DNA of 64,000 bases from Nonomuraea harbinensis (GTDB taxonomy: Bacteria > Actinomycetota > Actinomycetes > Streptosporangiales > Streptosporangiaceae), in contig NZ_JAHKRN010000001.1 of the NCBI RefSeq assembly GCF_019396385.1, positions 124,001 through 188,000 of the forward strand, written 5' to 3'. The notes beneath the pieces were generated by a model. It ran no database searches, was not told where the DNA came from, and worked only from the letters and a program-made list of their open reading frames with translations. Of this stretch, positions 952 to 11,648 are shown one piece after another. Made by a program: the position numbers and the translations under genes. Position 1 is the stretch's first letter; the number at the start of each line of letters is the position of its first letter.

Positions 952-984
952 CCCGTTTCCCGGGTGGCGGGCGGGCCGGTCAGC
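947..984. terminator. possible bidirectional terminator between convergent genes
   Basis: GCTGACC (947-953) and GGTCAGC (978-984) form a 7-bp stem containing both convergent stop codons, with a smaller CCCG/CGGG hairpin inside the loop. There is no U-tract. Weak evidence beyond the position between two converging genes. Confidence 0.25.
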
Positions 985-2239
985 TCACTTCCGCCGCTGG
1001 CCTGCGGCGGCGGAACCAGTGGGGGTGCGACTTGACGAAGGTGACCAGGAACAGCGTCTGGATGCCGCCCTCGACGAGCAGGAAGAGGCCGCCGTCGACG
1101 CCCTGCAGCAGGGAGCCGCCGTTCAGGCCACCCCAGACGGCGACCAGCGCGCGGATCAGCGAGCTGATGATGATCGGCAGGGTGTAGATCGCGAACATGC
1201 CCAGGGCGACCGCCGCACTGGGCACGAGCAGCACCGCGTAGATCCGCACCGCCCGCCGTTCGCGGGCGGACAGCTCGGCGCTCGGATCGGCGGGAGGCCG
1301 CGCCCGCTTCACGACGGCGATCACCCGGCGGAGCAGGTGGCGGGCGTAGCCGAGCCCGTCGCCGAACAGGTTGCGGCAGCGCAGGAGGTCGGCGAGCACG
1401 AAGTAGAAGTCGGTCCGCATGTAGACGTGCATCTGCAGCGGCACGCTCAGCATGATGACCAGCGCGAGGGCCCGCAGGAGCGCCGCGATTCCCTCCGGCG
1501 GGTTCGCGTGGGCGAGCACGAGCAGCAGGGTCGCGAAGAGGAAGAGGTCGCAGGCGGTCCCGGCGAGGTAGACGCGGTAACGCGAGCGCCTCGGCACCGA
1601 CCAGATCGCGGTGACGTCCGTCTGCACGACCAGGTTGTGCAGACGGGTGCCGAACCCGATGCGTGCCGGGGTGCCGAGCGACCGCGCGGCCATCAGGTGC
1701 ATCAGCTCGTGCAGGCTGATCACCACCGAGAACATCGCGGTGTTGACCAGCGTCGTCAGCCCGATGTAGTCGCTCCAGAAGAAGTCGTGGTACACGGGCA
1801 CCAGATCGGGCCGGCCGAACAGGGTGACCAGCGCCGCGCCGACCACGACCGCCCACAGCACCCGCATCGGGCGGCCGAAGAGCCACCGCACGTGCCTCTC
1901 GGCCAGCCAGGGCAGGTGGGGCGGCGGGGCCTGCTCGGCCGGGTCCGGCAGGTCCGCGTCGTTCAGCCGGGCGACGAAGCCGAGCTCGACGAGTGCTTCC
2001 ACGAGCTGCACGACGTCCAGCTCGACGTCGTGCTCCTCCTCGATCCGGCGCTGGACCACGCCGATCGGGAGGCCGCCGCCGAGCAGCTCGACCGCCTTGC
2101 CGTAGAGCGCGGGCAGGCTGACGAACTCGCCGAGCTCCGGCCGCCCCACGATGACGCTGTCCGGATCGTCGTCCGCCTGGATGCTGAGCGGGCGCAGCAG
2201 GAGAGTGGCGGCCGTGTCGACGGGGACGGGCGCCGTCAT
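980..2239 (-). CDS. M50-family (site-2-protease-like) membrane metallopeptidase with PqqD-like N-terminal domain
   Basis: 419 aa. The start at 2239 is chosen because its ATG overlaps the TGA of the upstream ThiF gene (ATGA), indicating coupling; a longer frame upstream lies inside that gene. Residues 1-95 look like a PqqD/RRE winged helix (LLLRPLSI..., VSLPALYGKAVELL, then two helices ending LVELGFVARL). Several membrane segments follow, and the zinc motif HELMH lies at 177-181 inside a hydrophobic stretch. A later AGTACD (about 226-231) could supply the third ligand, in the place of the NPxxD-type motif of M50 enzymes. Known M50 proteins cleave substrates in or near the membrane. Here the likely role is cleavage or export-linked maturation of the 31-aa peptide encoded upstream; that substrate is inference. 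Confidence 0.8.
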   Translation of the reverse strand: MTAPVPVDTAATLLLRPLSIQADDDPDSVIVGRPELGEFVSLPALYGKAVELLGGGLPIGVVQRRIEEEHDVELDVVQLVEALVELGFVARLNDADLPDPAEQAPPPHLPWLAERHVRWLFGRPMRVLWAVVVGAALVTLFGRPDLVPVYHDFFWSDYIGLTTLVNTAMFSVVISLHELMHLMAARSLGTPARIGFGTRLHNLVVQTDVTAIWSVPRRSRYRVYLAGTACDLFLFATLLLVLAHANPPEGIAALLRALALVIMLSVPLQMHVYMRTDFYFVLADLLRCRNLFGDGLGYARHLLRRVIAVVKRARPPADPSAELSARERRAVRIYAVLLVPSAAVALGMFAIYTLPIIISSLIRALVAVWGGLNGGSLLQGVDGGLFLLVEGGIQTLFLVTFVKSHPHWFRRRRPAAEVS

Positions 2240-3336
2240 CCGCCGGCCGAGCCGCAGGCCGGACAGTCGTCGTCGCGCACCACGTCCACGGTGTAGACGT
2301 GGTCCCAGACCGCGAAGTTCCAGTGGAACACCCGTCCGCGCGCCTGGGTGGGCAGGCCGCCGAGGTGATACGTCACTTCCAGCGCGCACAGGTGACCGCT
2401 GATGTTGGCGCCGGCGGCGACCACCGCGTTCGGCCGGACCTCGCCTGCGATGAGATAGTTCTCCCCGGAGGCGTCCCTCTTCCGGTCCTCGTCACGGCGC
2501 ATGCAGAGCCAGCAGCCCGTCTCGCCCGGATGGAAGGAGCCGACCACCGCCATCGGCCCGGCGTAGAAGCTGACGAACCACGGCGTCCCCGTACGCAGTG
2601 CCGCCTCGTTCGTCCAGAACATGATGTCCGGATTGGGTTCGTCAGCGCAGAGCACGAACACGTCGCAGTCGGCCATCAACGCGGCCACGTCTTCGGGCCC
2701 GGTCGCCTTGACCTCGCTGCCCGTCACCGAGACCAGGCCGTTCATCGCACGCAGCCGGGAGACCGCCCGCTCGACCTTGGACTCGCCGATGTCCTGCTCG
2801 GTGTAGAGGAGTTGCCGGGTCAGGTTCGATTCCTGGATGTCGTCGAAGTCAGCCAGGTGAAGCGCGCCGACGCCGCTCGCCACCAGGCCCGCCGCGACGG
2901 CGGATCCGGTGCCGCCCACGCCGAGCAGGCTCACCCTGGCCTGCTTGATCCGTGACTGGATGTCGTAGGGCGACTCCCTCGGAACGGTGTCGATCCAGGA
3001 GTAGAAGTGGCGGGCGGGCGTGTACCTCTCCAGTTCGCGGGCGGAGAGATTGGCGGGGGACTCCGCCTCGGCGTCTTCAACGAAACCCTCGGCGATGAGC
3101 GCGTTGACGATCTCGCGGACGTTCTCCTGGTCGATCTCCGGGCTGTTCGCCGCGAAGTCGGCGCAGAGCTGTTCGATGCCCCGGGTGCCATCCATGAGGG
3201 TGAGGATTCGCGCGATATTTCCGTCGGCGTCGTCCTGCAACTCGGCGGCCACCCCGTATTGACCGAGACCGATCCTTATCCGGCCGTCCGGAAAGACCGC
3301 CGGCAGATGAACGCGTTTGACACGAGGTTTCCGCAT
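2236..3336 (-). CDS. ThiF/MccB-like E1 adenylyltransferase with N-terminal recognition-like domain
   Basis: 366 aa. Residues about 15-90 form a small winged-helix-like domain resembling the RiPP recognition element or peptide clamp. The ATP-binding Rossmann core follows: GVGGTGS at 139-145, ADFDDIQESNLTRQ with the E1-type Arg174, Lys187, and Asp232 after VFVLC. Two CxxC pairs (CWLC 275-278, CPAC 358-361) form the zinc site seen in ThiF, MoeB and MccB. Clamp, E1 core and Zn tetrad is the arrangement known for MccB, which adenylates the C-terminus of the microcin C7 peptide. The neighbouring 31-aa peptide ends in GNG, so C-terminal acyl-adenylation of that peptide is my inference. It is the second gene of the peptide-ThiF-M50 unit and its stop overlaps the M50 start. 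Confidence 0.85.
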   Translation of the reverse strand: MRKPRVKRVHLPAVFPDGRIRIGLGQYGVAAELQDDADGNIARILTLMDGTRGIEQLCADFAANSPEIDQENVREIVNALIAEGFVEDAEAESPANLSARELERYTPARHFYSWIDTVPRESPYDIQSRIKQARVSLLGVGGTGSAVAAGLVASGVGALHLADFDDIQESNLTRQLLYTEQDIGESKVERAVSRLRAMNGLVSVTGSEVKATGPEDVAALMADCDVFVLCADEPNPDIMFWTNEAALRTGTPWFVSFYAGPMAVVGSFHPGETGCWLCMRRDEDRKRDASGENYLIAGEVRPNAVVAAGANISGHLCALEVTYHLGGLPTQARGRVFHWNFAVWDHVYTVDVVRDDDCPACGSAGG

Positions 3337-3361
3337 GCGCGCACTCTTTCATCACGTGGAA

Positions 3362-3396
3362 CGCCGGAGCCGATCGCGACTCGATCGGCTCCGGCG
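3362..3396 (-). promoter_or_regulatory. 15-bp perfect stem-loop between peptide gene and ThiF gene
   Basis: Arms 3362-3376 and 3382-3396 are perfectly complementary (core GGAGCCGATCG / CGATCGGCTCC) around a 5-nt loop. It starts 12 nt after the peptide stop and ends about 25 nt before the ThiF start. There is no following U-run, so it is more likely an attenuator, processing site or 3'-stabiliser than a full terminator. Such hairpins often make a precursor peptide far more abundant than its modifying enzyme. Confidence 0.7.
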
Positions 3397-3408
3397 CGTT
3401 GTCTGGAC

Positions 3409-3504
3409 TCAGCCGTTGCCTTCGCGAACAGCGGTGGTCTCGATCTTCTCCAGCTTGCGGACCTTGAGCTCAAGCTTCTTGGTCTCGTTCTTCTGCTTCT
3501 CCAT
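3409..3504 (-). CDS. 31-aa Lys/Glu-rich peptide, candidate RiPP precursor
   Basis: Small gene: ATG at 3504, stop at 3409-3411, with a near-perfect Shine-Dalgarno GGAGGTGA placed just before the ATG, better than most genes here. The product starts MEKQKNE, has an amphipathic charged middle with Leu11, Leu13, Val15, Leu18 and Ile21 spaced like a helix, and ends TTAVREGNG. It has no Cys, Ser, Trp, His, Phe or Tyr, which argues against lanthipeptide, sactipeptide or thiazole chemistry. The terminal Gly after Asn-Gly context recalls substrates of E1-type enzymes (ThiS/MoaD end in Gly; microcin C7 peptide ends RTGNAN). The helical part is probably the recognition segment and the last 8-10 residues the product; this division is inference. 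It is not similar to any precursor family I can name. Confidence 0.75.
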   Translation of the reverse strand: MEKQKNETKKLELKVRKLEKIETTAVREGNG

Positions 3505-3862
3505 GTTCACCTCCACGTGTTTCCGGCTCCGTCGAATGGAATCCGTAAGGATGTCCAGAATCTACGAACCGCCGCCATAGCCGCGCTACATCACCGACGG
3601 TGGTGGGTGCGTCACGGTGGCGGGGCGGCCACCCGGAAGCCCGAGCAGAGCGGACCTTCGGCGTCTCCGCGCGAATGGGCAGGCAGATCGCGACCTGCCG
3701 GACGCCGCGCCGGACGGCCCATAAAGTCCTTTGCGCCCCGCACGGCGACGACCTAAAATCGGCACGCCAACCCGTCGAGCCGCACCCCCCAGCGAGCATG
3801 ACCGAGCGGCAGATCACTGCCGGCGATCTCCTCTATGAATGTCCAGGGCGGAGCGACACTGG
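3505..3862. promoter_or_regulatory. divergent regulatory region between peptide operon and SARP gene
   Basis: About 358 bp without a convincing gene, visibly less GC-rich than its surroundings. For the SARP side there is a promoter-like pair (listed separately). For the peptide side a TAGATT -10-like hexamer (3564-3559, minus strand) has no recognisable -35, as is usual for activator-dependent promoters. Upstream of it lie two ACGGTGG copies (3597-3603 and 3614-3620) and a CACCG-A-CGGTG palindrome (3592-3602), which are possible activator contacts. Binding by the adjacent SARP is inference. Confidence 0.5.
3731..3759 (+). promoter_or_regulatory. candidate promoter of the SARP gene
   Basis: TTGCGC (3731-3736) and TAAAAT (3754-3759) are separated by exactly 17 bp; TAAAAT matches the vegetative -10 consensus at five of six positions. 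It lies about 100 bp upstream of the preferred SARP start. Confidence 0.45.
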
Positions 3863-6800
3863 ATGCGTTTCGAGATCCTAGGCCCACTCCAGGTGATCCA
3901 GGACGGCCGGCACCACTTTCTCGGCAACGCCCGGAAATTACGTATGCTGCTCGCCGGTCTCATCTCCAGGGCCGACCAGCCGGTCTCCAGCGATTTCCTG
4001 TCCACCGTTCTGTGGAATGACCGGCCGCCGGTCTCGGCGCGCAGCAATCTCCAGTCGTACGTGCATCAGCTCCGCGTCCAACTGGGCGCGGAGCGACTGC
4101 TGAGAAAGCCGGAAGGATATCTGCTCGTCACCCACGGCGAGGTGGACGCGGCGCAGTTCCGGAAACTCGCGGCGGAGGGGTCGGCGGCTTTCGACGGAGG
4201 AAACCACGAATCCGCCGGTCGCTGTTTCCGGCGCGCCCTGGATCTGTGGCGGGGGCCCGCGTTCGCGGAATTCCTCGATTCCGGGCCGATCGCGGAGGAG
4301 GCGCTGTCCCTCGAACAACTCCGGCTCACCGTCCACGAACGCTGGGCGGAGACCGAGCTGGCCCTCGGGCGGCACGCGGAGGCGGTGGCCGAGCTGCGCG
4401 AGGTGGCGAAGGCCCACCCCTACCAGGAGAGTCTGCACGCGCTCCTCATGCTCGCCCTCTACCGGTCCGGCTGTCAGACGGAGGCCCTGGAGACCTACGC
4501 CGTCGTCCGCGACCTGCTCGCGGACGAGCTGGGCCTCGAACCGAGCCCCGTGCTGCGCCGCGTGCACGAGGCGATACTCCGCGGCGACGAGCGGATCGAC
4601 CTGCCCGCGAGGCCGGGCGCGTGGCCGTCGACCGGAGGCGCTGTGGTCCCTCGCCAGCTCCCGCCCACGGTCGCCGACTTCACCGGCCGGGACGACGAGG
4701 TGGCGACGCTCAGGGACGCCCTGTCCCCCGGTAGGCGCCAGGCGCTGACGATCTGCGCGATCTCCGGCATGGGCGGGGTCGGCAAGACCACGCTCGCCCT
4801 GCACGTGGCGCATCAGCTCGCGGGCGCGTTCCCGGACGGCCAGCTCTACGTCGGCTTCTCCGGCGCCGACGACCGCACCGCCGTGGCCCGGGCGCTGGAG
4901 TCGATGCTGCGCGCTCTCGGCGTCGGGGGAGCCGCCGTCCCGGAGTCGGTCGGCGACCGCACGGCCCTCTACCGGTCGCTCCTGGCCGGCAAGCGGATGC
5001 TCGTGGTGATCGACAACGTGGCCGACGAATCGCAGGTCAGCCCGCTGCTGCCGGGGTCGGGCACCTGCGGCGTGCTGATCACCGGCCGTCCCCGGCTGGT
5101 GGGCCTGGCCGGCGTCCGGCACCTGCGCCTGAACGTCTTCCGGCCCGCCCAGGCGATCGAGCTGCTGGCCCGGATCACGGGGCCGGAGCAGGTGCGGGCC
5201 GCGCCCTCGGAGGCGAGCGAGATCGTCCGGCTCTGCGACCACCTGCCGCTCGCCGTCCGGGCCGCGGGGGCGCGCCTGGCCTCCCGGCCCGACTGGCCCC
5301 TGGCCCGCATCGCCGATCTCCTGCGCGACGAGCGACGCCGTCTCGACGAGCTGGCGGCCGGGGACCTCACCGTACGGGCCTCGCTCGGGTTGAGCTACAC
5401 GGCACTGTCGTCCCCGGCCCGGCGCCTCTACTACCTGCTCAGCGTGCTGCACACCCCCGACTTCGCGGGCTGGGTCGCCGCGGCCGTGCTCGACACGTCC
5501 CCGGAGGAGGCCGAGCGCAGCCTCGGCGAGCTGCTGAGCGCCAACCTCCTCACCGTCGCGGGCGTCGACACCGCCGGCCAGCCCCGTTACCGCTTCCACG
5601 ACCTGATCCGCCTGCACGCCCGCGACCGCGCCGACGCCGAGGCCGCCCCGCACGAGATCCACGCGGCCGTGACCCGCGCGCTCGCCGGCTGGCTGGTCCT
5701 CGCCCGGCGGGCCGACACCGGGCTGCCCGGCAGGGTCTTCCCGACGCTCCCGGCCGAAGGCGTGACGCACGAGCCGCACGTCCGGATCTCGGATGCCTGC
5801 GCCTGGTTCGAGGCGGAAAGAGGCGCGCTCCGGGCCGCGGTGGCGCAGGCCGCCGCGCTCGGCGCGCACGACCTGTGCTGGCAGCTCGCCGATGCGACCG
5901 TCAACTTCTTCGAGCTGCACGACTACTACGACGACTGGGAGTCGACCAGCCGGCTCGCGCTGGAGGTCTGCGAGCGCGCCGGGGACGCGCGTGGCCGCGC
6001 CTTCATGCTGCGCGACCTCACCGGGTGCCTGCGCATGGGGCCCCGGCACGCCGAGGACGAGGCACTGGAGCACGCCCTCTCCGCGGTCGCGCTCTTCGAG
6101 GGCCTGGGCGACGTCCACGGCGAGGTCGACGCCCGGATCCTCGCCGGCACCGCGTTCCTGGTCCGGGGAGAGCCCGGCAAGGCCGTGGCCTACCTCGACG
6201 CGACGCTGGCGAAGGCGAGGGACGCCGGCTACGTGCTCGGTCAGGTCGAGGCCGAGTGGCAGCTCGGGTACGGCCACCGGGTCCTGGGAGACTCCGAGCG
6301 GGCCGGCGTCCACCTGGAGGCCAGTCTGCGACTGGCCGAGGACGTGCCCCTCCCGTCGCAGCTGTGCCGGATCCACAGCCTGCTCGGGATCGTACGGCGG
6401 GAAGAGGGCAGCCTCGTCGAGGCCGAGGCGCACTTCACGCGCGGCGTGACGCTGGCCCGTTCGCTCCGCAGCCTGAGCGACGAGATCACCATCTTGCCGC
6501 ACCTCGGCATGACCTACGTCAAGCTGCGCGACCCGCGGGCCAGGGACGTGCTCGGCCGGAGCATCCGGCTGGCCCGCCGGTGGAGGGCGCGATTCCAGGA
6601 GGCCACGTCGCTGGGCGCGCTCGGCGAGCTCGAAGCGGCCGAGGGCCACCACGCCCTCGCCGTCGCCCACACCGTCGCCGCCCTCGAGATCTGGCGCGAG
6701 CTCGCCAGCCCCTTCCACGAGGCGCAGACCCTCAAGTCCCTCGGCGCCCTGCACGCGGCCGCCGATCCGGACCAGGCCCGTACGGCCTGGAGCGCGGCCC

Positions 6801-6883
6801 GGCGGCTCTTCGCGCAGCTCGACAACCACACGGAGGTGAAGGAGCTCACCACGCTGCTCGAAACCGTCAGGACAGGTGGATGA
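3863..6883 (+). CDS. AfsR/SARP-type transcriptional regulator (BTAD, NB-ARC, TPR)
   Basis: About 1006 aa. I start at 3863 (MRFEILGPLQV, the standard SARP N-terminus, with GGAG 9 nt upstream); an in-frame ATG at 3839 has no ribosome site. Order: OmpR-like winged helix (1-95), bacterial transcriptional activation domain (about 95-240, ending DELGLEPSPVLRRVHEAIL), NB-ARC ATPase (P-loop GMGGVGKTT near 300, VIDNVAD Walker B, CDHLPLAVRAAG), then TPR-like helices to the end. Such proteins activate secondary-metabolite genes in response to an NTP-linked signal. It is divergent from the peptide-ThiF-M50 unit and so the likely pathway activator. Its 3' end overlaps the convergent arabinofuranosidase gene by 17 bp. 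Confidence 0.9.
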   Translation: MRFEILGPLQVIQDGRHHFLGNARKLRMLLAGLISRADQPVSSDFLSTVLWNDRPPVSARSNLQSYVHQLRVQLGAERLLRKPEGYLLVTHGEVDAAQFRKLAAEGSAAFDGGNHESAGRCFRRALDLWRGPAFAEFLDSGPIAEEALSLEQLRLTVHERWAETELALGRHAEAVAELREVAKAHPYQESLHALLMLALYRSGCQTEALETYAVVRDLLADELGLEPSPVLRRVHEAILRGDERIDLPARPGAWPSTGGAVVPRQLPPTVADFTGRDDEVATLRDALSPGRRQALTICAISGMGGVGKTTLALHVAHQLAGAFPDGQLYVGFSGADDRTAVARALESMLRALGVGGAAVPESVGDRTALYRSLLAGKRMLVVIDNVADESQVSPLLPGSGTCGVLITGRPRLVGLAGVRHLRLNVFRPAQAIELLARITGPEQVRAAPSEASEIVRLCDHLPLAVRAAGARLASRPDWPLARIADLLRDERRRLDELAAGDLTVRASLGLSYTALSSPARRLYYLLSVLHTPDFAGWVAAAVLDTSPEEAERSLGELLSANLLTVAGVDTAGQPRYRFHDLIRLHARDRADAEAAPHEIHAAVTRALAGWLVLARRADTGLPGRVFPTLPAEGVTHEPHVRISDACAWFEAERGALRAAVAQAAALGAHDLCWQLADATVNFFELHDYYDDWESTSRLALEVCERAGDARGRAFMLRDLTGCLRMGPRHAEDEALEHALSAVALFEGLGDVHGEVDARILAGTAFLVRGEPGKAVAYLDATLAKARDAGYVLGQVEAEWQLGYGHRVLGDSERAGVHLEASLRLAEDVPLPSQLCRIHSLLGIVRREEGSLVEAEAHFTRGVTLARSLRSLSDEITILPHLGMTYVKLRDPRARDVLGRSIRLARRWRARFQEATSLGALGELEAAEGHHALAVAHTVAALEIWRELASPFHEAQTLKSLGALHAAADPDQARTAWSAARRLFAQLDNHTEVKELTTLLETVRTGG

Positions 6884-8357
6884 CGTTCCAGCTCACCGGG
6901 GGGAGGAGGACGCGCATCGGGTCCTGTTCCACGTTCTCGTTGGGGCGCGGGGCCACCCGGTCGGGGTCGTCGGCGGTGTTGCGGGCGTAGACGTCCGGGC
7001 CGGTGAGGGTGGTGGCGGAGGTGATGCGCGCGCCGCCGAGGGCGCGGGCGTCGATCTCCAGCGAGAGCGGCCCGTCCGTGGCCCGGTTGACGGCGAAGAT
7101 CGTGACGCCCTCGTCCGAGCGGGTGGCGACCGCGTGCAGCAGCGGCACCTCCCCGTACTGGGCGGTCTCGTACAGGGGAGAGACCGGCTCGACCCGCAGC
7201 ACGTCGCCGGCCGCGTGCCGGCTGGCCTGGGCGAACGGGTGGAAGGTGGTCTGCCGCCAGGCCCGCCCGCCCGGCTCGGTCATGATCGGCGCGATCACGT
7301 TGACGAGCTGGGCCAGCGAGGCGGCCGTCACCCGGTCGCTGTTGCGCAGCAGGGTGATGAGCAGCCCGCCGAAGGCCACCGCGTCCGCCAGGTGGTAGTG
7401 GTCCTCCAGCAGCGGCGGCGCCACCGGCCAGTCCCGCGGCGGCTCGGCCGCCTGGAAGCGCGACAGGTACCACACGTTCCACTCGTCGAACGAGATGTCG
7501 ATCCGCTTGCGTGACTTGAGCCGGGCCCCCACGGAGTCGGCGGTGGCGACGACCGAACGGATGAAGTACTCCATGTCGGTCGAGCAGGCCAGGAAGCTGC
7601 CGAGGTCGCCGTCCTTCTCCTCGTAGTAGGCGTGGCACGAGATGAAGTCGACGACGTCGTACGTCTCCTCCAGCACGGTCGACTCCCACGCGCCGAACGT
7701 CGGCATGGTCGAGCCGGAGCTGCCGCACGCGACCAGCTCCAGGCCGGGGTCGACCATGCGCATGGCCCTGGCGGTCTCGGCGGCCAGCCGGCCGTACTCG
7801 CGGGCGGTCTTGTGGCCGGTCTGCCAGGGGCCGTCCATCTCGTTGCCGAGGCACCACATCCGGATGTCGTGCGGCTCCTTGGCGCCGTTGGCGGCGCGCA
7901 GGTCGGACAGCGCGGTGCCGGACGGGTGGTTGCAGTATTCCAGCAGGTCGAGCGCCTCGGCGATGCCGCGGGTGCCGAGGTTGAGCGCCATCATCGGCTC
8001 GACCCCCGCCTTGCGGCACCAGCGCACGAACTCGTCGACCCCGACCTCGTTCGTCTCGGTGCTGTGCCAGGCCAGGTCGAGCCGGCGGGGGCGGCTCTCC
8101 TTGGGGCCGATGCCGTCCTCCCAGCGGTAGCCGGAGACGAAGTTGCCGCCGGGGTAGCGGACGGTGCTCACGCCCAGCTCGCGGGTGAGGTCGAGGACGT
8201 CGCGGCGGAAGCCGTCCTCGTCGGCGCCAGGGTGGTCCGGCTCGTAGACGCCGGTGTAGACGCACCGGCCCAGGTGTTCGACGAAGGTGCCGAAGGTCCG
8301 GCGCCGCACCGGCGCCACCCGGAACGCGGGATCGATCGTGAGGCGGGCGTCGTGCAC
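6867..8357 (-). CDS. alpha-L-arabinofuranosidase, glycoside hydrolase family 51
   Basis: 496 aa, normal length for intracellular GH51 enzymes, which release terminal L-arabinose from arabinoxylan or arabinan oligosaccharides. GTG start at 8357 with GAGGAG 8 nt upstream; a longer frame to 8477 would run through the promoter and operators. Features: TFGTFVEHLGRCVYTGVYEP at the N-terminus, VSTVRYPGGNFVSGYRWEDG, acid/base Glu in CLGNEMDGPW, nucleophile Glu in SFDEWNVWY, and the C-terminal jelly-roll domain ending PPVSWNVIHLS. No signal peptide, so cytoplasmic, acting on imported oligosaccharides. Divergent from the ABC importer and sharing its operator region. Confidence 0.93.
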   Translation of the reverse strand: MHDARLTIDPAFRVAPVRRRTFGTFVEHLGRCVYTGVYEPDHPGADEDGFRRDVLDLTRELGVSTVRYPGGNFVSGYRWEDGIGPKESRPRRLDLAWHSTETNEVGVDEFVRWCRKAGVEPMMALNLGTRGIAEALDLLEYCNHPSGTALSDLRAANGAKEPHDIRMWCLGNEMDGPWQTGHKTAREYGRLAAETARAMRMVDPGLELVACGSSGSTMPTFGAWESTVLEETYDVVDFISCHAYYEEKDGDLGSFLACSTDMEYFIRSVVATADSVGARLKSRKRIDISFDEWNVWYLSRFQAAEPPRDWPVAPPLLEDHYHLADAVAFGGLLITLLRNSDRVTAASLAQLVNVIAPIMTEPGGRAWRQTTFHPFAQASRHAAGDVLRVEPVSPLYETAQYGEVPLLHAVATRSDEGVTIFAVNRATDGPLSLEIDARALGGARITSATTLTGPDVYARNTADDPDRVAPRPNENVEQDPMRVLLPPVSWNVIHLS

Positions 8358-8391
8358 GGGGGGCTCCTCGCGGTTGGTGGTGCTCCAGAGA

Positions 8392-8420
8392 TTGTTAGCG
8401 TTATCAACCCGCGAGGTCAA
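8392..8420 (-). promoter_or_regulatory. promoter of the arabinofuranosidase gene
   Basis: On the minus strand TTGACC (8420-8415), a 17-bp spacer and TAACAA (8397-8392). The -10 overlaps the operator at 8393-8406, a repressible arrangement. Confidence 0.6.
8393..8406. promoter_or_regulatory. LacI-type operator 1
   Basis: TGTTAGCGTTATCA, an imperfect version of TGTTAGCGCTAACA, over the -10 region of the arabinofuranosidase promoter. Confidence 0.6.
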
Positions 8421-8426
8421 GGGCGT

Positions 8427-8440
8427 GGCAAGCGCTTGCC
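8427..8440. promoter_or_regulatory. perfect palindrome, LacI-type operator 2
   Basis: GGCAAGCGCTTGCC is a perfect 14-bp palindrome with the central CG step typical of LacI-family operators. It sits midway between the two divergent promoters and its sequence differs from the other three sites, so a second LacI-family protein may bind here. Confidence 0.6.
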
Positions 8441-8449
8441 GCACAAACC

Positions 8450-8478
8450 TTGACAGCGTGCTTGTTACCGCTAACACT
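8450..8478 (+). promoter_or_regulatory. promoter of the sugar ABC importer operon
   Basis: Perfect TTGACA -35 (8450-8455) with a TAACAC/AACACT -10 region 16-17 bp later (8472-8478), overlapped by operator 3. Confidence 0.6.
8463..8476. promoter_or_regulatory. LacI-type operator 3
   Basis: TGTTACCGCTAACA is a near-perfect palindrome (TGTTA/TAACA arms). It covers the spacer and -10 of the importer promoter, so occupancy would block transcription. Confidence 0.65.
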
Positions 8479-8527
8479 CGGGTAACCCCGCCGAAACATG
8501 ACCCATAGCCACCCCAGCGCCCCTTGG

Positions 8528-8541
8528 TGTTAGCGAGAACA
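8528..8541. promoter_or_regulatory. LacI-type operator 4
   Basis: TGTTAGCGAGAACA shares the TGTTAGCG half-site with operator 1; the right arm is weaker. It lies in the leader of the importer operon, 26 bp before the solute-binding-protein start. Confidence 0.5.
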
Positions 8542-8566
8542 TTCCTCGGCGAAGGAAGAGGCCACT

Positions 8567-9898
8567 GTGCAAGACCCCCCAGCCATCACCCGCCGGCACC
8601 TGCTCGGCGGAAGCCTTGCCCTCCTCGGCGCCGCCGCCTCCGGCTGCGCCATCCCCGTGGGACTCGGTTCGTCCCAGACCCGCGTGAAGTACTGGCACTT
8701 CCTCGGCGCGAGCGACGGCATCATCATGAACCAGATGGTCGGCGCGTTCGCCCGGGACAACCCCGGCGTCTTCGTCGAGGAGAACGTGCTCGCCTGGGGC
8801 GAGCCGTACTACACGAAGATCGCCATGGCGGGCGCCGGCGGCCGGTCGCCCGACGTCGCGACCTTCCACCTGGCCAGGCTTGCCGGCATCGGCGCGGGCG
8901 AGATCCTCGACCCCATCAACGTGGACCTGCTGGCCGAGGTCGGCCTCCGGGCGGCCGACTTCAGCCCGCCCATCTGGGAACGCGCCCACTACCAGGGCAC
9001 GCTGTACGCGGTGCCGTTCGACGCGCACCCGATGGTGCAGTACTACAACACCGACCTCTGCGGGCGGGCCGGCCTGCTCGGCGCCGACGGCAAGCTGCGA
9101 CCCACCACCGGCGCCGACCAGCTCCTGGAGCAGCTCCGCAAGGCCAAGGAAGTGCTCGGCGGCAAGCCTCCGCTGGTCTTCGACGCGCTCGGCCTCGGCA
9201 CCGTCGGCCCCTGGCGGGTGTGGTACTCGCTGTACCCGCAGAGCGGCGGCACCCTGCTCTCGGAGGACGGCGGCCAGGTCACCATCGACGACCAGAAGGC
9301 GCTGGAAGCGCTGCGGTTCATGCGCCGGCTCGGCGAGGAAGGGCTGTGCGACCCGACCACCGACTACGGCGCCTCGGTGGCCAAGTTCACCAACGGCGAG
9401 GCCGCGTTCCTGTGGAACGGCGACTGGGAGGTCACCGGCCTGAAGGAGCGCAAGACGCCGTTCAGCATGACGCGCTTCCCCAGCGTGTTCGGCAGCGGCG
9501 CCGCCCAGGCCGACTGCCACGTGTTCGTGCTGCCGCACCAGCGCGACCGCGACCCCGAGGTGGAACGGGCGACCTACCAGTTCATCGCCTACCTGGTGAA
9601 GAACAGCGCCGACTGGGCGGTGGCCGGCCACGTGCCCTCCTACCTGCCCGCACTCCAGGAGCCCGACTACCTGGCGCTCCAGCCGCAGTCGGAGTACCGC
9701 TCCGTCATCACCGACGTCGCCCTCGACCCCCAGGTCTGGTACACCGGCTCGGCCTCCCGGCTGTGGATCGAGTTCGGCGGCGCGTTCTCCCCGGTCATCA
9801 GCGGTGAACGCACGCCGGAAGAGGGGCTGGCCAACGCCAAGGCGGCGCTGAGCCGGCTGATGTCCGCCCCGAACCCCTTCCCCGCCGAGGAGCGATGA
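8567..9898 (+). CDS. sugar ABC transporter solute-binding lipoprotein (family 1)
   Basis: 443 aa. GTG start with a GAAGGAAGAG ribosome site. N-terminal signal with twin Arg (RRHLLGG), hydrophobic LALLGAA and lipobox ASGC, giving a lipid-anchored extracellular protein. The body is a type 1 binding fold: MAGAGGRSPDVATFH, YAVPFDAHPMVQYYNTDLC, TNGEAAFLWNGDWEVTGLKE, TPEEGLANAKAAL. It delivers an oligosaccharide to the two permeases that follow. The shared operators with the GH51 gene make arabino-oligosaccharides the probable ligand (inference). No ATPase gene is present, so a shared MsiK-type ATPase elsewhere is likely, as is common in actinomycetes. Stop overlaps the next start. Confidence 0.92.
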   Translation: MQDPPAITRRHLLGGSLALLGAAASGCAIPVGLGSSQTRVKYWHFLGASDGIIMNQMVGAFARDNPGVFVEENVLAWGEPYYTKIAMAGAGGRSPDVATFHLARLAGIGAGEILDPINVDLLAEVGLRAADFSPPIWERAHYQGTLYAVPFDAHPMVQYYNTDLCGRAGLLGADGKLRPTTGADQLLEQLRKAKEVLGGKPPLVFDALGLGTVGPWRVWYSLYPQSGGTLLSEDGGQVTIDDQKALEALRFMRRLGEEGLCDPTTDYGASVAKFTNGEAAFLWNGDWEVTGLKERKTPFSMTRFPSVFGSGAAQADCHVFVLPHQRDRDPEVERATYQFIAYLVKNSADWAVAGHVPSYLPALQEPDYLALQPQSEYRSVITDVALDPQVWYTGSASRLWIEFGGAFSPVISGERTPEEGLANAKAALSRLMSAPNPFPAEER

Positions 9899-10818
9899 TG
9901 ACGACCACCGTCGCCGCCCCCGCCACCACAGCCCCCGCCGCCAAGGCCCAGGTCAAGCGGAGCTGGACGCAGCACGGGCTGCTGTTCGTCGCGCCCTTCC
10001 TGCTGGTCTACGTCGCCTTCCTCGTCTGGCCGACGCTGCTCGGCCTGCGGATGAGCTTCACCGACGTCAACATCGCCGGCAGCAACGACCGCTTCGTCGG
10101 CTTCTCCAACTACGCCGAGGCGTTCGGCGACCCGCGCATGTGGCGCTCGCTGTGGAACACGCTCGTCTTCACCGTGCTCAGCACGGTTCCGCTGGTGCTC
10201 CTCGGCCTGGGCCTGGCCCTGCTGGTGCACAACCTGCGGTTCGTGCAGTGGCTGTGGCGGCTGTCGTTCTTCGGCCCCTTCCTGCTGCCGTCGGCCGTGG
10301 TGTCGATCCTGTGGCTGCAGATGATCTACCCGCCCGAGTACGGCCTGCTCAACGGCACGCTCGGCACCGACGTCCTGTGGCTCGGCGACCCCGGCACGGC
10401 CATGTGGTCGGTGGTGCTCACCACCGTCTGGTGGACGGTCGGCTTCAACTTCCTGCTCTACCTGGCCGCCCTGCAGTCGATCCCGCAGCACCTGTACGAG
10501 GCCGCCGCCATCGACGGGGCGTCCGCCTGGGACAAGCTCAGGTCCATCACGCTGCCGATGCTCGGCCGTACGACGGCGCTGATCGTCGTGCTGCAGCTGC
10601 TGGCCTCGCTCAAGGTGTTCGACCAGATCTACCTCATGACCGGCGGCGGGCCCGAGGACGCCACCCGGCCGATCATCGAGTACGCCTACGACGTCGGCTT
10701 CACCGGCTACCGCATCGGCTACGCGTCAGCCGTCTCCTACATCCTCTTCGTCCTGATCGTCATCGTCTCCCTGGCGCAGCTCCGGCTGTTCCGCAAGCGC
10801 GCGGAGGTCTCCTCATGA
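9895..10818 (+). CDS. sugar ABC transporter permease, MalF type
   Basis: 307 aa with six membrane segments after a Pro/Ala-rich N-terminus. The EAA loop is clear (LYEAAAIDGASAWDKLRSITLPML), as is the C-terminal MTGGGPEDATRPIIEYAYDVGF motif of carbohydrate importers of the CUT1 group. The ATG at 9895 overlaps the TGA of the binding protein. It forms the membrane channel with the following permease. Confidence 0.93.
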   Translation: MMTTTVAAPATTAPAAKAQVKRSWTQHGLLFVAPFLLVYVAFLVWPTLLGLRMSFTDVNIAGSNDRFVGFSNYAEAFGDPRMWRSLWNTLVFTVLSTVPLVLLGLGLALLVHNLRFVQWLWRLSFFGPFLLPSAVVSILWLQMIYPPEYGLLNGTLGTDVLWLGDPGTAMWSVVLTTVWWTVGFNFLLYLAALQSIPQHLYEAAAIDGASAWDKLRSITLPMLGRTTALIVVLQLLASLKVFDQIYLMTGGGPEDATRPIIEYAYDVGFTGYRIGYASAVSYILFVLIVIVSLAQLRLFRKRAEVSS

Positions 10819-11648
10819 CCAAGCGGTTCAGCGTGAGCCAGCTCGTCCTGCTGGTGGTCGCCTCGGTGCTGGCCGTCATCTGGATCGCCCCGATCGCCTG
10901 GGCGGTGGCCACCTCGCTCAAGCCCGAGGACGAGACCACCAAGCTGCCGCTGGAATGGTTCGGCAGCACCGTCACGCTCGACGCCTACGAGCTCGTGCTG
11001 GGCACCGGCGGCATCATCACGTGGGCCGTCAACTCCACGGTGACCGCGGTGATCGTCACGTTCCTGACCGTCCTCTTCTCGGCGATGGCCGCGTACGGGT
11101 TCGCGCGCACCCAGTTCAAGGGGCAGCGGGCGCTGCTGGGGCTGATCCTGGCCGGGATCATGGTGCCGCCGCAGGTGCTCATCGCGCCGTTGTTCGCCGA
11201 GATGGTGGCGCTCGGGCTGGTCGACACCTGGTGGGCGATCATCCTGCCGCAGGTGGCGGCGCCGCTGATCGTCTTCATCCTGTACAAGTTCTTCCAGGAC
11301 GTGCCGCCGGAGCTGGAGCAGGCCGCGTTCGTGGACGGGGCCGGCCGCTGGCGGGTGTTCTTCACGATCGTGCTGCCGCTGTCGCGGCCGGTGCTGGCGG
11401 CGGTGTCGATCTTCACGTTCATCACCACGTGGAACAACTTCCTCTGGCCGTTCCTGGTGTCCACCGACCCGAACACGATGACCCTGCCGGTCGGCCTGGC
11501 CAACGTGGTGCAGGGCACCTTCGGCCTCCGGTACGCGCAGATCATGGCCTCGGTGGTGCTCGCCGGGCTGCCGCTGATGGTGGTGTTCGTGCTGTTCCAG
11601 CGGCAGATCGTCCGCGGCGTCGCGCACACCGGGCTGGGGGGTCAGTAG
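10815..11648 (+). CDS. sugar ABC transporter permease, MalG type
   Basis: 277 aa. The start at 10815 (MTKRFSVSQ) overlaps the preceding stop (ATGA). Six membrane segments; EAA loop ELEQAAFVDGAGRWRVFFTIVLPLSRP; C-terminal FQRQIVRGVAHTGLGG is a typical MalG-type ending. Last gene of the three-gene importer unit. Confidence 0.93.
   Translation: MTKRFSVSQLVLLVVASVLAVIWIAPIAWAVATSLKPEDETTKLPLEWFGSTVTLDAYELVLGTGGIITWAVNSTVTAVIVTFLTVLFSAMAAYGFARTQFKGQRALLGLILAGIMVPPQVLIAPLFAEMVALGLVDTWWAIILPQVAAPLIVFILYKFFQDVPPELEQAAFVDGAGRWRVFFTIVLPLSRPVLAAVSIFTFITTWNNFLWPFLVSTDPNTMTLPVGLANVVQGTFGLRYAQIMASVVLAGLPLMVVFVLFQRQIVRGVAHTGLGGQ

Follow-up and report, generated by a model that had tools for sequence, protein, structure and literature searches.

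A recurrent small-peptide, ThiF and M50 protease cassette in Nonomuraea harbinensis and its likely membership of an undescribed RiPP-type family

The window analysed here, a 64,000-nucleotide stretch of the Nonomuraea harbinensis genome (RefSeq assembly GCF_019396385.1, contig NZ_JAHKRN010000001.1, positions 124,001 to 188,000), contains a compact cassette of four genes that we examined as a putative peptide-modification pathway. A single minus-strand operon encodes, in this order, a 31-residue peptide (MEKQKNETKKLELKVRKLEKIETTAVREGNG; 3409..3504), a 366-residue MccB-like ThiF adenylyltransferase with an N-terminal domain resembling a RiPP (ribosomally synthesized and post-translationally modified peptide) recognition element, or RRE (2236..3336), and a 419-residue site-2-type M50 membrane metalloprotease (980..2239), whose start overlaps the ThiF stop in an ATGA. 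An AfsR-type SARP regulator of 1014 residues, with BTAD, NB-ARC and TPR domains assigned by Pfam, is divergently encoded on the plus strand (3839..6883), with an intergenic region of 334 bp between it and the peptide gene. A first-pass annotation of this DNA had named the 31-codon gene, its Shine-Dalgarno site GGAGGTGA (3507..3514, minus strand), the ThiF motifs, the protease HELMH and the SARP/NB-ARC/TPR protein, and all of these were found where it had placed them.

Protein searches returned 202 ThiF relatives at E<=1e-10 and 188 M50 relatives (120 listed in each case). With the window's own genome included, a ThiF match at E<=1e-40 was present in 16 of 394 sampled genomes of the class, and one at E<=1e-110 in 23 of 297 sampled genomes of the family. 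Among the hosts are Nonomuraea, Microbispora, Actinomadura, Micromonospora, Saccharothrix, Kribbella, Catelliglobosispora, Glycomyces, Catenulispora, a Calothrix and a cyanobacterial metagenome-assembled genome. From the best 80 loci of a genome-contig scan we drew 25 named loci in 24 genomes (N. indica twice), with flanks of unequal length, six of the loci (L009, L010, L016, L018, L020 and L023) lying near contig ends. In L001-L024 the ThiF protein is 40-85% identical to that of the window, and in L025 31% (41% to the best of two ThiF queries). Another 53 loci (L027-L080 minus L068; 30-36% identical, mostly Pseudomonas) were excluded by identity and coverage and served as a control; L026 and L068 (29-30%, no M50, no peptide) were examined and kept outside the 25.

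In 25/25 named loci an M50 gene lies directly behind ThiF on the same strand, the matched parts being no more than 132 bp apart. A short open reading frame (ORF) carrying the leader pattern precedes ThiF in 24/25, its end lying 60-170 bp before the ThiF gene, and is missing only from L003 (N. jiangxiensis); without L025 the counts are 24/24 and 23/24. The loose leader pattern behind this count was written after the first peptides had been seen. As a control it was sought in 708 other 960-bp stretches from these loci and in front of the 53 unrelated ThiF-type matches, and it occurred in none of either set. A strict version, [IVA][RK][KR]LE[KR][ILV]ETT, was found in 19 of the 25. The first-pass annotation had made its peptide-maturation model depend on the small ORF being kept in homologous loci, and kept it is, apart from L003 and one further module of the window genome described below. 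Besides ThiF, M50 and SARP-type genes, clustering of the flanking genes gave no family in more than four of the 25 loci, on the basis of crude gene predictions that lacked ThiF or M50 at several of them. That the genes for peptide, ThiF and M50 recur side by side in many actinobacteria, and in two cyanobacteria as well, suggests that they likely represent an undescribed family of small modified peptides.

The 31-residue ORF has no family match above cut-off in NCBIfam or Pfam, and its conservation was assessed by comparison with its relatives. We collected 46 distinct peptides upstream of ThiF, 29 of them (the window's included) at loci where ThiF shares 60% identity or more with the window's enzyme. 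Column counts over these 29 place the predicted leader at residues 1-24, ending in an invariant E-T-T (3433..3504, minus strand), and the predicted core, the variable tail AVREGNG, at 3412..3432 (minus strand), with the border between them inferred. Counted back from the ETT end, five leader residues are invariant in 29/29 (K-15, L-7, E-3, T-2 and T-1), and E-6 and K-5 are shared by 28/29. The tails are 6-9 residues long and occur in 22 different versions; an Arg stands at +3 in 28 peptides and at +4 in the remaining one, and the C-terminal residue is Gly in 28 and Ala in one. Compared with the window peptide, its three nearest relatives show replacement of AV by KI or KL and of N by S in the tail, with the last 16 leader residues unchanged. 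Three invariant residues are each written with two or three synonymous codons (CTG, CTC and CTT for L-7; ACC, ACG and ACT for T-2 and T-1), K-15 being AAG throughout. Over all pairs, differing codons were silent in 962 and changing in 1881 cases in the leader, and silent in 321 and changing in 1288 in the first five tail codons. A Shine-Dalgarno-like site precedes 28 of the 29 peptides, whose start codons were chosen in part by this very site. An encoded precursor beside a modifying enzyme, with conserved leader and variable core, is the general mark of a RiPP, and it is present here.

The window peptide contains three Thr and neither Cys nor Glu-Glu; its tail ends in Gly and lacks Cys, Lys and Trp. 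The earlier statement that thiazole, lanthionine or sactionine chemistry is excluded by composition goes too far, given these Thr residues and relatives whose tails carry Ser, Trp or, further out, Cys. From the window peptide and from the 22 tails of close relatives Cys is absent. The microcin C heptapeptide holds an Arg-x-Gly-Asn stretch that the core (3432-3412) loosely resembles; this likeness is probably a coincidence, because the tails of relatives differ.

The ThiF protein (Pfam ThiF, 2.9e-37) carries GVGGTGS at residues 139-145, R174 and CxxC pairs at 275/278 and 358/361, with an RRE-like domain at residues 1-90 and the E1/ThiF core at 121-366. Its predicted structure matches MccB over the whole length and then PaaA, in agreement with the sequence comparison, followed by MoeB and ThiF; AclA (PDB 9egb) is also a structural match. 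The clamp-like N-domain proposed earlier, whose failure to match RRE/PqqD would also have counted against the peptide-maturation model, is borne out as RRE/PqqD-like by the predicted fold. At the sequence level, Pfam finds PqqD weakly at residues 42-82 and, at E<=0.01, in 16/34 ThiF members, and NCBIfam gives TIGR03882, a leader-binding domain model for TOMMs (thiazole/oxazole-modified microcins), just above cut-off (40.8 against 36.9 bits), with the generic E1 models below cut-off among the 25 matches listed. Positions R174, Q175, K187 and D232 are conserved: R174-K187-D232 has the spacing quoted for R167-K180-D225 of EnfB, and Q175-K187 that of Q167-K179 in IndF. The enzyme thus shows the RRE-ThiF fusion with conserved ATP-site residues that characterizes ThiF-like adenylyltransferase RiPPs, and on its modelled fold it would bear the leader-binding RRE expected of a RiPP enzyme.

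The M50 protein has HELMH at residues 177-181, and the HExxH and D277 are conserved; it presents the HExxH in a membrane helix and the distal Asp ligand of a site-2 protease. The predicted structure resembles RseP/SpoIVFB and, on the N-domain (residues 11-94, nt 2209-1958), lasso-peptide RREs, which are the closest matches, and PqqD. Foldseek returned nothing for this model at E<=0.001, so these matches come from a second look with VIA, each covering part of the model. Its first ~95 residues had been taken for a second PqqD-type domain; the predicted fold agrees, whereas the sequence match is weak (Pfam PqqD at E<=0.01 in 6/36 M50 members). Aligning the N-domain profiles of ThiF and M50 with each other gave no convincing match (probability 0.7%, E 0.041, against probabilities of 0.10% and 0.23% for two mismatched controls). 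Like the window M50, as predicted, the daptide protease MpaP and the epipeptide protease EpeP are intramembrane proteases that remove a leader, and MpaP is described as RRE-dependent, in line with the RRE-like domain seen here. The modifying enzymes differ from that of the cassette: daptides are modified by decarboxylation, transamination and methylation, and the modifying enzyme of epipeptides is a radical SAM protein. The daptide metalloprotease model NF041824 (daptide_HExxH) matches 3/36 M50 members, at best with 4e-07, and gives no match to the window M50 at E<=0.1. EpeP is termed an M50 protease in PMC10885120.

We compared the cassette with the known systems built on related enzymes. Among them are the ind (IndF) and enterofaecin (EnfB) clusters, in which, as in the window, a precursor is accompanied by an RRE-ThiF protein as modifying enzyme. 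The EnfA leader has a (V/I)RK motif as in the window family, and IndA has a TT close to its ring (EDTTNWYFI) that recalls the family's Thr-Thr. Their cores, unlike that of the window, end in Ile, with nucleophiles reported as Trp or backbone; the ind protease is an M16 rather than an M50 enzyme, and both clusters carry transporters. PaaA (pantocin A) and GrcB are likewise RRE-ThiF enzymes, acting on precursors of 30 and 39 residues, but their products are formed through Glu residues, and the window tail has neither a Glu pair nor Cys. Pantocin A, whose core form is EEN, requires adjacent Glu residues, and membership of that class is rejected since the peptide has no EE; the GRC thiolactone class, in which a C-terminal Cys is joined to an internal Glu, falls with the absence of Cys. 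The TOMM/YcaO class requires a YcaO beside its E1-like partner and is rejected despite the TIGR03882 match: the genome's only YcaO gene lies on contig C51, away from all four of its ThiF-M50 modules. MccB of microcin C7 (PDB 3h5n, 3h9j, 6om4) forms its N-P bond on a C-terminal Asn (PMC12150305), whereas the window peptide ends in Gly and an M50 protease accompanies its ThiF. The microcin C class, which requires a C-terminal Asn that comes to bear the nucleotide, is rejected for a peptide that ends in Gly. With a Gly-ended tail devoid of Cys, Lys and Trp, the chemistry in the window cannot copy that of MccB (Asn), GrcB (Cys) or IndF (Trp), and a backbone closure of the EnfB type is possible by analogy. 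Lasso peptides offer a precedent for an invariant Thr close to the end of the leader.

Taken together, these observations lead us to read the cassette as a minimal RiPP-type pathway in which ThiF adenylates a Gly and closes a ring, the M50 protease cleaves and the SARP controls expression, with a probability of about 0.72 for the scheme as a whole; that the cassette is of RiPP type is well supported. In this scheme the leader of the 31-residue peptide would bind the RRE of the MccB-like ThiF, which would use ATP to adenylate the C-terminal Gly. This adenylation is likely, judging from the near-invariance of the Gly and the precedents of MccB, EnfB and IndF. The same enzyme would then probably close a ring, for which the two invariant Thr, the Arg at +3 and the backbone are candidate nucleophiles; the RRE-bearing M50 would cut after the Thr-Thr pair and possibly export the tail, and the divergent SARP would likely control the cassette.

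The regulator itself raises an alternative. SARP proteins 79-86% identical over ~1000 residues accompany the module in four relative loci from the three nearest genomes, namely G561, Microbispora sp. H11081 (represented twice, by L001 and L178) and N. cavernae. Genome G561 also has the LacI and arabinofuranosidase genes that flank the window's cassette, whereas in Microbispora and N. cavernae the complete four-gene cassette is retained with neither of them in the 8-kb flanks. As the SARP stays with the cassette despite these differing flanks, it belongs to the cassette in this clade. The processed tail might be a pheromone sensed by the SARP through its TPR and NB-ARC domains, and the SARP would then activate the cassette it belongs to and possibly further genes; we think this explanation unlikely. 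It draws on the divergent SARP kept with the module, on tails that are short and variable, and on the fact that three of the four ThiF-M50 modules in the window genome (those of the window, C83 and C85, C44 being the exception) face a SARP, in a genome with only 41 BTAD matches in 9.39 Mb. Against it, a BTAD regulator lies within the fetched flank of only 13/25 named loci (12 by tblastn, L021 by Pfam), and none was seen beside the two cyanobacterial modules, one of which sits on a 5-kb contig. SARPs, moreover, commonly serve antibiotic clusters as local activators. The density of BTAD matches in the window genome and ten module-bearing relatives (25-60 matches each) would give ~0.07 per 17 kb; the comparison yields no formal probability, because these are related loci and SARP genes are concentrated in biosynthetic regions. 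Among loci without a tblastn SARP match, Pfam was applied to the neighbours of L010, L017 and L021 only, and L010 has a LuxR-type NB-ARC/TPR regulator in place of the SARP. In the wider family the SARP is a frequent, not an obligatory, partner. A more specific form of the signalling idea is less probable again: ThiF would close the 7-residue tail into a ring at its final Gly, M50 would cut and export it, the SARP would be its receptor, and the several cassettes of one genome would act as parallel tail-specific channels.

Use of the peptide as a sulfur carrier or ubiquitin-like protein, its C-terminal Gly being activated for joining to sulfur or another molecule as in ThiS, MoaD or ubiquitin, seems to us quite improbable. 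Such a role would suit the C-terminal Gly, the tails that read LREGG in some close relatives, the rank of MoeB and ThiF directly behind MccB and PaaA among the structural matches, and the two CxxC pairs, which are typical of ThiF/MoeB. It is opposed by the full-length match to MccB and PaaA with the RRE, by a conserved leader joined to a variable tail, by an M50 with an RRE-like domain, and by the lack of any further recurrent flank family in the crude clustering, in which carrier and sulfurtransferase genes were not searched by name. Still more improbable is a scaffold-peptide pathway resembling that of the pearlins, in which the end of the tail would be built up and then clipped by M50, as with TglG and TmoG: according to PMC10885120, M50 proteases do release C-terminal residues in pearlin pathways, but the same clustering, in which pearlin ligases were not searched by name, yielded no additional family. 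Finally, the view that ThiF and M50 are a housekeeping or orphan pair, separated from the SARP by an ORF that arose by chance, can be dismissed, for although short ORFs are frequent and this one matches no family, the conserved leader and the recurrence in 24/25 loci against zero in both controls rule out chance, and leader conservation with the full-length MccB match rules out a housekeeping ThiF/MoeB.

Between the peptide gene and ThiF lies a GC-rich stem-loop of 16 bp without a T-run (3361..3397, minus strand; z -4.6). We folded the corresponding spacers of 45 loci with distinct peptides, with 100 shuffles each and two spacers too long to fold; z was <= -2 in 34 of 43, and among the nine spacers above this value are those of L155 (z +1.7) and of L176, a near relative (z -1.2). 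The hairpin is a possible attenuator: standing 3' of the peptide gene, it would let precursor mRNA exceed enzyme mRNA.

More distant modules vary this arrangement. The precursors of paralogous modules are smaller still (MKIEVRKVEAVKATAAPPV in C83, MKIEVRKVEAVKATQFMT in G323, with a GTG start, and MTIEIRKVEEVETTGNSNSC in C44), and together with that of the Catenulispora locus (MKIEVKKVEKVQATIYMPPPKL) they have tails that do not end in Gly, so that a different chemistry or use of the tail is likely there. In the C85 module of the window genome (L134), which faces a SARP, no small ORF is recognisable in the gap, and the precursor may have diverged or be located elsewhere. Further tails end in GGCC (Calothrix) or TGD (Glycomyces), and Kribbella and Micromonospora (L015, L016, L019-L021) share a conserved tail of 14-15 residues with two Cys (PGCR[ND]xxCG) that by analogy would permit a GrcB-like thiolactone. 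No M50 match was found in 13 of 74 tabulated loci (several genomes twice), all with a divergent ThiF. In a second group of ThiF loci (L088, L089, L092-L094, L101-L103, L141, L142, L145-L147 and L152), with several copies per genome and a ThiF identity of 37-45% to the best query, the peptide (IR[RL]LD[KR]IETT, followed by tails like SSNSVGN) comes after ThiF, and M50 lies ~0.7-1.2 kb beyond it. At L155 (G441 C79) two consecutive precursor-like small ORFs, with Cys and Glu in their tails, stand before one ThiF-M50 pair.

The window's cassette is embedded in a sugar-use locus, with a LacI-type regulator before it (4-951) and an alpha-L-arabinofuranosidase and an ABC sugar transporter (binding protein and two permeases) after it (6867-11648). 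The Microbispora and N. cavernae cassettes have no LacI or arabinofuranosidase neighbours within 8 kb, which indicates that one of the two, cassette or sugar locus, has changed its place. Among nine window neighbours scanned with Pfam there was no radical-SAM or oxygenase gene.

The first-pass annotation knew of no described cluster with exactly these parts. For the combination this agrees with the open-access papers searched, in which no ThiF-M50 RiPP was found; the term M50 does not occur in PMC12250964. The parts are known singly, since ThiF-type clusters with a single modifying enzyme (ind, enterofaecin) have been published, as has the intramembrane peptidase of the daptides with its RRE dependence. 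The study PMC12150305 mined 27,400 RRE-ThiF fusions and mentions several uncharacterised clusters in its supplement, where the ThiF-M50 family may be visible as an unnamed cluster.

In conclusion, the cassette points to a family of very small peptide pathways, with predicted precursors down to 18-20 residues and an apparent toolkit that, as far as seen, consists of one modifying enzyme and one membrane protease. It could reveal a new ThiF reaction, and its repeated pairing with SARP regulators makes the control of SARP activators by peptides directly testable.
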